64,000 nucleotides of DNA from Tubulanus polymorphus (Eukaryota; Nemertea; Palaeonemertea; Tubulaniformes; Tubulanidae): positions 3,260,501 through 3,324,500 of the forward strand of contig NC_134028.1 in the NCBI RefSeq assembly GCF_964204645.1, read 5' to 3'. The notes beneath the pieces are model-generated. The model was not told the origin of the DNA. It saw only the letters and a list, made by a program, of their open reading frames with translations, and did not search any database. Below are positions 50,965 through 53,900 of this stretch, one piece after another. Numbering within the stretch: position 1 is the first letter of the stretch; each line of letters opens with the position of its first letter. The translations under genes were made by a program, and so were the position numbers.

Positions 50965-53900
50965 CTAAGAATCGAGTCTCGCGAGTTCCATCGTGTAAAT
51001 ACCGATACTTTCCATGTCGAACAACACGAAGTAGATTTGTTTCAGTGAACTGGACATGACTGTTACAAAGTAATTGCTGATTGCCTTCAAGATGATTTGT
51101 GCGGCTGTCTGTTTCGGGAAACCATTCCTGAAAATGAATTCGAAATGAATTGAAAGTGAACTAAAGAAGACGGGTTGGTAAGCATCGGGAATAGTAAGCG
51201 CACAGGATTCGGTTTGAATTGCTGACATCTGCCTTGCCATGAAAATCGCCTTGCCTTGAAAAATGCATCTCCAATCTACATGAATTAGAGATGAACAGGT
51301 TGATGACACTTATCAAAGAAATTGGGATCGTTCATCTGCTACAAACGCATAAAATCTCGAGTTATCAACCCCTTCCCCCGTGCATCTAATAACATTTTTT
51401 GTAAAATCTTGTTGTCTGAAGCTGTAAGTCATGACTTGTTAGATAACATCGAAGCAAATAGCCAAGATCAAAGAAAGGAGTCATCGTAGCACATACGTAC
51501 AATCACTTCAGTAAACTCCTTTGTGCATTTGGGCGTATGTAATAAATGCACGATCCCAGATTTGAAGCCCCAGTAACCAACAAAGAACCAACATTTCAAG
51601 TGTCACATAATATTCACAATATAGAAATGGTAAGTTTACATTTCGTTACAACGCAGTGGAACCGACTTGAATGCGTTAACCGTTATTGTGTCAACAGGAG
51701 ATGCAAATCATCATGTTAGTTCCAGTACTCTTCGATATGTTTCCTAAAGCAGAAAATTCTTCAACTTGAACCACCATTTCTCATCGCAAAAGATGAGTTG
51801 ATTCAATTAATAGTAGGTAGACTAGGTAACATATTCTTTAATGAAAAGCATCTCACAGATTCTATATAATTTGTTATATCTAATGGTTCCGGTGCATTTA
51901 AGAAGTTAACAAACGAACAGTAAGACAAATTTCCGTAAAATCATTACAGTTTTTCCGTGCCTATACAAAGTGATCTCGGCAATTGTTGTTAGTTAAGTTA
52001 AGTTAAGTTTATTTACTCCACAATTATACAATTGCACAGAGCACAAAATTAATTTACAATAGACATTGCAACATTTAACATTAGAAATGTATTAAACATT
52101 TGCGTATATACAACGCCAATTTTTTAAGAGTTTGGCAATTTGAGTTAAACAAATCATACAACTTTACGTTATTGGGGAATCTCCAATAACGCTCCGGGAT
52201 ATATCTAGCTCTGGATTCCTGGAAGTACGGGCAGACGAGTAAAAAGTGATATTCATCCCCCACCGCCCCTAAATCACACTTTTGGCACAGCCTATTGGCA
52301 CGGGCAATTCCACGCCACCGCCCAACTTCCACCGGTAGCCTGTGAGCTGAGCATCTAAATCTACATAAAGTTAACCGGTCCCTAAGGGTTAATTCAGTTA
52401 GATACTTTTCCATTTTGAAACGGCATTTGATTGTTAAATACGTAACAGCCATAGTGGAAGCAGTAAGTTTTGCATGCCAGACTTGCATAAACTGATCCTG
52501 TTAACACAACGAATGCACATAGAAAGTGTCTGTAATCACGTACGAGTGATGACCTAGTGGTAAGTGGACAGCTATTAGTGGTATTTTAGTCTACATCACG
52601 TGTGAGAATTCTTACCGTCCACTTCCTATCGACGGAAAAGCAAGGGAGGATAGGCTCTTTTCCTCTGCCAATTTTAGGCAGTTCCTCACAGCTTTATCGA
52701 GGAGTTGCTGCGCATTTTGCGATTTCCACTGCGGCCCATTCACATGAATAACATGCTTAGCAGGTAACGAGTGGCCTCGAGAAATGGCAGCTATAGAGAA
52801 AACGGAGCACACAATTTACAATACAGATATCTATATGATTGACAGGCCTTCATATAATGCTCTTAGTGTACTACATGCATCCGATGCTAAATCATGAAAC
52901 TCACTGCGTGATTCGAACTGCATGGAAGCGTATGGTACCTGGTAGATCTTCTAATGGCTACTATTTACAATTTTAGACGGATAGTGCCGTAGAATTTGCC
53001 AAGCCATAGGCTATACCGCATATAGGCCTGTACTTGGCCATAATTGCCTTACTGTGTAGGGACAATAATCGGTAATCAATAGCGAGTCTTTAGAGATACA
53101 GTGCATCGGATGAATGAACTTCAAGATTATTTGAAGACCTGCCTTTGAAAAATATAAGACTTACGTGCCACTGCTGACTGAGGGCAAGGCCACTGATTTA
53201 AGATTTTTCTCATCGGCTAATGCTAGTATGTTCTTTACGGCTTTCTCTAATTGTTGTTGTGCATTTTGTTGGCCCCACGAAGGACTGTTTACGTGTATGA
53301 CGTACTTGGCCGGGAAATTGCGACCAGGACAGATCGCCGCTGAAACGTGACGACAAAAACAATGACGGGAAAGTTTGATTAGGAGTTTCTTCCGCCGCGT
53401 CGATGACCCTCGACTCCTTGTACCGGTATATTCAGGAGTAAGCTTTGTTAGGGCGCATTCAGTAAGTAAGCAAACTGTAGCTTGGACCAAGAAGTCAAAA
53501 CTGCATTGATCTGTGTATATAGCGTTTCATATGAAGTGTACAGATTGACTTATCTTATGTTTGCAAACATTCAGTAGATAATCATCCGAGTACATGAACT
53601 GAATTACGCGTGCACAAGCTAAGACAACCTAAATTTGCTCTACATTTTGCTTACTTAATGAACGCTCCTTTGAAAATAATCTCAAGAGGTTTTCGGGGGT
53701 GGATCTAGGGAACTGGTGTACAGGAGTCCCTGCCTTCCCAGAGTCTTTTTTGTCAATACAGTGGCTGTCAAATTTTGTATTCTCTTTGAAATTGCGGGGT
53801 CCGCTTGTAGACTTTGGTGTCACTTCTTTACCGCGATATTGCCATTTCTTTTCTTTCGGACCCCGTCTTCCAACTCGCTAGATCCGTCCCCAGGGTTTAA

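Follow-up and report, generated by a model that had tools for sequence, protein, structure and literature searches.

Vertebrate macroH2A1.2 is not known to bind ADP-ribose. The exclusive exon pair from which it and macroH2A1.1 are made sits at the GGEVG segment of the macro domain, and in both macroH2A1.2 and the paralogue macroH2A2 Gly224 is replaced by acidic residues; in macroH2A2 the distal-phosphate-binding loop also contains two prolines (PMC8232725). Here we describe a candidate second exon switch in the same domain, in the macroH2A gene of the nemertean Tubulanus polymorphus. The gene lies in a stretch of 64,000 nt (positions 3,260,501 to 3,324,500 of the forward strand of NC_134028.1, assembly GCF_964204645.1), which we call the window. 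As in vertebrate MACROH2A1 (1.1/1.2), the same gene and the same domain have two alternative exons, and the predicted pocket is altered (PMC8232725, PMC5740500). In the vertebrate gene, however, the alternative segment comprises GGEVG and the adenine side, whereas here the GGEVG exon was found once and it is a later exon, carrying the start of the diphosphate loop, that is doubled. The same diphosphate loop is altered in human macroH2A2 (PPFPSGRNCFP; PMC8232725), but by prolines in a separate gene that arose by duplication and is without GGEVG, while here it is altered by exon choice and no proline is involved.

The gene codes for histone macroH2A. Its coding region is on the minus strand, from 56265 to 50965 of the window, and exons 1 to 8 (Table 1) were bounded by GT-AG sites together with protein similarity. 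The N terminus has an H2A fold (Pfam Histone, E = 5.4e-14, and Histone_H2A_C, E = 9.2e-15, for the 7b protein), the C terminus is a macro domain (PF01661, 109.7 bits with exon 7a and 114.6 bits with exon 7b, against a cut-off of 22), and a basic, Lys/Pro-rich linker, seen in the exon 3 translation, lies between them. The best-matching solved structures for the spliced protein were those of macroH2A.1, and a 12-residue segment matches without a difference one of two peptides from which an antibody to Mytilus macroH2A was made (PMC5550673). Exon 5 is the counterpart of the segment that distinguishes vertebrate macroH2A1.1 from 1.2.

The original prediction for this locus was of two intact 175-nt exons in tandem, 7a and 7b, and it proved right in coordinates, lengths, GT-AG sites and phases. 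Each exon is bounded by AG and GTAAG, is entered in phase 1 and is left in phase 2. Splicing in the order 1-2-3-4-5-6-7a-8, or with 7b in place of 7a, gives 1119 nt of coding sequence, 372 residues and a normal stop in each case. Including 7a and 7b together leads to a stop at codon 330, 141 nt upstream of the 7b-8 junction, and skipping both leads to a stop at codon 274, inside the last coding exon. Joint inclusion and joint skipping thus both break the frame, as had been predicted from the lengths and phases: it is kept only when exactly one of the two exons is present. The donors of the two exons score 3.98 and 4.71, and the other donors of the gene 1.89-7.01. The RNA presumably carries one version of exon 7 at a time; frame shifting with subsequent decay is an established means of keeping exons mutually exclusive (PMC5740500, PMC6071210).

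Both exons are constrained and old. They are identical at 103 of 175 bases, which ruled out an assembly artefact as the source of the pair. At the protein level they share 36 of 59 residues when split codons are counted (35 of 57 complete codons), in agreement with the 60% or so that had been estimated. Mismatches fell at 13, 13 and 43 of the 57 first, second and third codon positions, respectively, and the proportions of nonsynonymous (pN) and synonymous (pS) differences were 0.25 and 0.91, with synonymous sites saturated (bootstrap interval for pN/pS, 0.17-0.42). In only one of the 18 fourfold codons common to both exons was the third base the same. When the same 69 changes were placed in simulations without constraint, none of 5000 runs kept 35 residues (the best kept 28), and the open frame survived in 11% of them. 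From the codon-position pattern and the simulations, both exons have long been held to protein function since they split. Neither copy is plainly decaying: at the 23 differing residues human macroH2A1.1 matches 7a at seven, 7b at nine and neither at seven, and the end branches of the two in a tree of the exon-7 region are 0.38 and 0.28 (14 rows, among them nine of the first 73 relatives described below, taken as every ninth).

Human macroH2A1.1 agrees with the two copies at 34/59 and 36/59 residues, and with the rest of the macro domain at 84/127. The distance between the copies is about that of each from the human protein. A duplication dating from around the divergence from vertebrates is possible, and so is a later one followed by faster change. 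Human macroH2A1 has nine coding exons and macroH2A2 eight (PMC4584325). In Hydractinia, macroH2A is reported to be a single locus with eight exons, for which the available text of the report gives no alternative exon (PMC5011920), and this speaks weakly against an origin before the cnidarian split.

What does the switch change in the pocket? The exchanged stretch comprises residues 261-319 and ends in the middle of the diphosphate loop, with 23 of its 59 residues differing. GGEVG and the end of the diphosphate loop are constant between the isoforms, both of which have Gly318 and the NGFP that follows. In OiMacroD the diphosphate contacts are made by Ser130, Gly132, Val133 and Tyr134, and a beta-phosphate water is kept in place by Gly91 and Ala29 (PMC5413906). 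By loop motif, Ser130, Gly132 and Val133 would be residues 316, 318 and 319 here. The two predicted loop changes, from Gly316 and Arg319 in 7b to Ser and Thr in 7a, hold when residues are numbered along this protein, and the OiMacroD contacts place them, as had been claimed, in the loop that holds the diphosphate. At residues 279, 281, 316 and 319, 7a has Ser, Ser, Ser and Thr and 7b has Gly, Gln, Gly and Arg; the corresponding residues are Ser, Val, Gly and Arg in human macroH2A1.1, and Gly, Val, Ser and Val in YmdB. Residue 279 is the equivalent of human Ser275, and it is 7a that has the human residue and 7b that does not.

The original prediction also implied a binding role for 7b, with 7a as the altered exon, and this part was not supported. 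Ser316 is present in 145 of 176 relatives and corresponds to a diphosphate contact in OiMacroD, Gly318 is found in both exons, and only 7a keeps the human residue at 279. Neither exon looks simply vertebrate-like; judged from these residues, both appear altered at the diphosphate, in opposite directions. The further claim, that the switch sits at a position other than that of the vertebrate pair, was upheld, as no second copy of the GGEVG exon 5 was found in the window.

Serine at the 7a loop position is shared with PARP14 macrodomain 1 and with MacroD/YmdB (ISSGVFGFP, ISTGVYGYP). These are hydrolases with Gly at 279, whereas 7a has Ser279, and Asn in place of their loop Tyr/Phe. The first macrodomain of 3vfq (PARP14), which we take to be PARP14 macrodomain 1, has the loop ISSGVFGFP, with SSG as in 7a and Ile at the place of residue 312. 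Human PARP14 macrodomain 1 is reported to be an active hydrolase, although no activity had been seen earlier with the mouse domain (PMC11920425).

To place residues 279 and 316 among relatives, two sets were used. The first held 73 relatives (5 viral and 68 bacterial loci, all kept, one row each), with Gly279/Ser316 in 50, Ser279/Gly316 in 21, Val/Gly in one and Gly/Ala in one. Because this pattern had been seen after the fact, a second set was gathered. Three phylum-wide searches contributed the 30 loci that each of them listed, four starting genomes contributed theirs, and 19 distinct lower-scoring loci were chosen by hand from one of the searches. Of its 111 loci, 107 were aligned and four repeated the first set, leaving 103 new relatives and a total of 176; a YmdB query of the viral contigs gave no further ones. 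Over all 176, the residues at 279/316 were Gly/Ser in 145, Ser/Gly in 21, Gly/Ala in four, Thr/Ala in two, Thr/Gly in two, Val/Gly in one and Gly/Gly in one, and Ser/Ser was not seen. Exactly one hydroxyl was therefore present at the two positions in 170 of the 176, none in six and two in no relative. After thinning to <60% identity, 24 of 26 had one hydroxyl and 2 of 26 had none. Human macroH2A1.1 (Ser/Gly) also has one, and YmdB is Gly/Ser. In contrast, 7a has two (Ser/Ser, 0/176 relatives) and 7b has none (Gly/Gly, 1/176). Since relatives nearly all have one hydroxyl, both exons appear to have been altered, and in opposite directions. The 279-316 column pair ranks third of the 1711 pairs in exon 7 by normalised mutual information, and Gly318 is kept in 174/176 relatives as well as in both exons. 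The sole Gly/Gly macrodomain, from a genome of one of the phyla searched (HAAGM...AIGTGV), otherwise resembles the Ser/Gly group.

Several points weigh against reading the two exons as opposite alterations of one conserved arrangement. The hydroxyl rule is post hoc, counts related sequences and not events, and is drawn from relatives in prokaryotes and viruses alone. The column pairs 279-280 and 279-295 outrank 279-316, and the ranking may partly follow clades. Human macroH2A2, with Ile/Pro and no hydroxyl, also breaks the rule, and Gly/Gly, the state of 7b, has its one precedent. Other residues of the exchanged stretch are unusual too: Cys264 of 7a is without precedent (Thr in 173 and Ser in three of the 176), Leu312 of 7a is rare (Phe 169, Ile 4, Leu 2, Val 1), Thr319 of 7a occurs in 0/73 and 0/107 relatives, and Arg319, shared by 7b and human, in 0/73 and 1/107. 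OiMacroD Gly91 and Ile93 were equated with residues 279 and 281 by motif and spacing, without a printed alignment, and should be read as probable equivalents. Finally, the exon-7 region tree leaves 7a, 7b and human unresolved.

With these points included, we consider it probable, on balance, that the exons are a real exclusive pair and that both isoforms have ADP-ribose-type pockets, differing in affinity or preference. Two retuned pockets seem likelier than a binder paired with a non-binder. Each transcript would take either 7a or 7b. Transcripts including both would be removed by nonsense-mediated decay, as expected from a stop that falls 141 nt short of the last junction; those with neither exon would lose the end of the macro domain. 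The common ancestor probably had Ser and Gly at 279 and 316, like human macroH2A1.1, which would be the simplest history; 7a would then have gained Ser316, giving two hydroxyls, and 7b would have lost Ser279, leaving none. The isoforms may differ over ADP-ribose, the ends of poly-ADP-ribose and related NAD metabolites, and the choice of exon may be set by tissue or stage.

An on/off switch like that of vertebrate macroH2A1.1/1.2, in which one exon abolishes ADP-ribose binding, seems to us unlikely. Ser316 by itself is the commonest residue among relatives, Gly318 and NGFP are kept in both exons, 7a keeps human Ser275, and neither an insertion nor a proline enters the loop, all of which argue against loss of binding. 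Such a switch does have a precedent in vertebrates, made at another exon and with G224 replaced (PMC8232725), and the paralogue macroH2A2 alters the same loop (PPFPSGRNCFP). The unusual Cys264 and Leu312 of 7a, and a combination at 279/316 that is rare or unseen in each exon, would also fit it. As to which exon would then be the off state, the original prediction leans to 7a, and the hydroxyl count allows 7b equally.

We give still less weight to an exclusive pair that is real but acts outside the pocket, through surface changes that alter partner binding, stability or chromatin placement, with the loop changes as by-products. Although 20 of the 23 differences lie beyond residues 314-319, four of the 23 (279, 281, 316 and 319) are on or beside diphosphate contacts, 279 and 281 being placed there by motif and spacing, and residues 279 and 316 depart from the relatives' pattern in opposite ways. 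That one copy is decaying or rarely used, or mainly makes frame-shifted, decayed transcripts that lower expression, is very improbable: the stop 141 nt before the last junction would make the double-inclusion transcript a good decay substrate, but both copies show constraint at the protein level and near-equal rates, a pure poison exon need not retain 36/59 residues, and both donor scores lie between the extremes of the gene's other donors.

Starting again from two retuned pockets, a wider reading can be offered, tentatively and with considerable doubt. The exons may represent an ancient switch across much of the invertebrates between a two-hydroxyl (7a) and a no-hydroxyl (7b) cradle, both of them states from which almost every macrodomain examined stays away; chromatin would in this way read NAD-derived ligands with two strengths or preferences. 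Vertebrates would have lost this switch, or solved the problem again at a neighbouring exon and through macroH2A2, in which the same loop is altered.

One macroH2A gene was found in the genome (267.8 Mb, 77 contigs), in searches that score the best candidates only. Of five PF01661 matches, two were the exon 7 copies and three lay on a different contig. The DNA of 7a matched itself only, and a query of 7b with exon 8 matched 7b, exon 8 and 7a (E = 1.6e-17), with nothing beyond those three at E 0.01 among the best candidates scored. The full 7a protein gave 20 matches, of which nine were in this gene, nine were H2A-like matches elsewhere (58-65% identical over about 115-120 residues) and two were partial H2A-like matches. 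Among the best candidates scored, there was no intronless copy of the macro part in the full-protein matches and no third copy of exon 7 in any genome search; a third copy or retrocopy was rejected after the searches with PF01661, 7a DNA, 7b with exon 8 and the full 7a protein. Within the window, eight exon queries run with tblastn brought up no further match below E 0.03, and a 1.2-like query, used for a second GGEVG exon, hit exon 5 alone (E 0.023) at E 1 or better. Six equal-scoring H2A matches lie on contig C10 (8362896-8422831), roughly 10 to 16 kb apart, which suggests a tandem histone array.

The intron between 7a and 7b is strongly folded (z -3.8, 0/60 shuffles as low), as is an 801-nt region (z -3.1, 20 shuffles). 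Of the 11 intron stretches tested, however, four fell under -2: besides the middle intron these were intron 5 (-4.1), the last part of intron 6 (-3.4) and intron 4 (-2.2). As other introns of the gene also fold strongly, the folding of the middle intron was not taken as distinctive. The middle intron shared no exact complementary run of 10-16 nt with the intron on either side of it, and none of seven imperfect inverted repeats joined the middle intron to a flanking one; one complementary run of 10 nt was found between the two flanking introns. No docking-site/selector pairing at the exon 7 pair was found in this single sequence. The middle intron, at 374 nt, is presumably too long to forbid the joining of 7a to 7b by crowding. 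Intron 5 (54341-54629) is itself strongly self-complementary, with an inverted repeat seen by eye at about 54390-54485, and may be a mobile element of small size.

In vertebrates the macroH2A1.1 exon is promoted by QKI. Three ACTAAY sites, which we take to be of QKI type, occur in the intron between 7b and exon 8, where 1.1 would be expected, and none in the other two introns; ACTAAT at 52574-52579 (minus strand) is 36 nt downstream of the 7b donor. The middle intron has one TGCATG, presumably an RBFOX-type site, with 0.12 expected. Both kinds of site are too weak to be treated as anything but leads.

Table 1. The macroH2A exons and the intron separating the alternative pair, in window positions.
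Feature	Length	Position	Strand	Remarks
macroH2A coding exon 1	172 nt	56094..56265	-	start codon, H2A fold; Pfam Histone on spliced 7b protein
macroH2A coding exon 2	107 nt	55684..55790	-	H2A fold
macroH2A coding exon 3	231 nt	55356..55586	-	H2A end and Lys/Pro-rich linker
macroH2A coding exon 4	90 nt	54854..54943	-	macro domain start
macroH2A coding exon 5	91 nt	54630..54720	-	HPTN...GGEVG; one copy found
macroH2A coding exon 6	90 nt	54251..54340	-	phase 1 at end
Alternative exon 7a	175 nt	53165..53339	-	phase 1 in, phase 2 out; LPSVSSG(T); Ser279, Ser316
Intron separating 7a from 7b	374 nt	52791..53164	-	single genome match; hairpin over most of length, z -3.8
Alternative exon 7b	175 nt	52616..52790	-	phase 1 in, phase 2 out; FPSIGSG(R); Gly279, Gly316
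macroH2A coding exon 8	163 nt incl. stop	50965..51127	-	entered in phase 2

The intron between 7b and exon 8 also holds a dispersed repeat (52045-52500, minus strand) that combines an open frame with a TAACT-rich tail. It has at least 42 matches in the genome, itself included, with 13 others at 98-99% over 456 bases, and had no Pfam match at E 0.01. By eye it looks like the 3' end of a non-long-terminal-repeat retrotransposon, and given the near-identical copies it was probably active recently. Elsewhere in the window are a rhodopsin-type G-protein-coupled receptor gene in two pieces (39933-42114, plus strand; 7tm_1, E 5e-48 and 5.1e-11) and a cysteine-containing frame (60974-61534, plus strand) with a marginal NRG2_N match (28.2 bits against a cut-off of 27).

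Independent duplication of an exon in the same gene has been described for human and fly, whose convergent tandem exons fall in 27 orthologous families (PMC9741552); the main text of that study does not contain the terms macroH2A1, H2AFY or histone. We found no report of a macroH2A exon-7 pair like this one in the literature covered, the likeliest sources lying outside that coverage. By its sequence, the invertebrate pair affects the loop that in vertebrates was altered through a duplicated gene, and the mechanism is the one that vertebrates applied to their other loop. Convergence with the vertebrate switch is plausible.

The splicing of macroH2A is known to give or deny chromatin an ADP-ribose pocket, and the literature covered places this at one vertebrate exon. 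A second, separate switch in the same domain in an invertebrate, if true, would mean that splicing control of the pocket has been favoured time and again or goes back much further than supposed. The two proteins, which differ at 23 residues and in which a coupled pair of contact residues appears to have moved in opposite directions, would also provide, as a natural pair, a direct test of how macrodomains choose their ligands.
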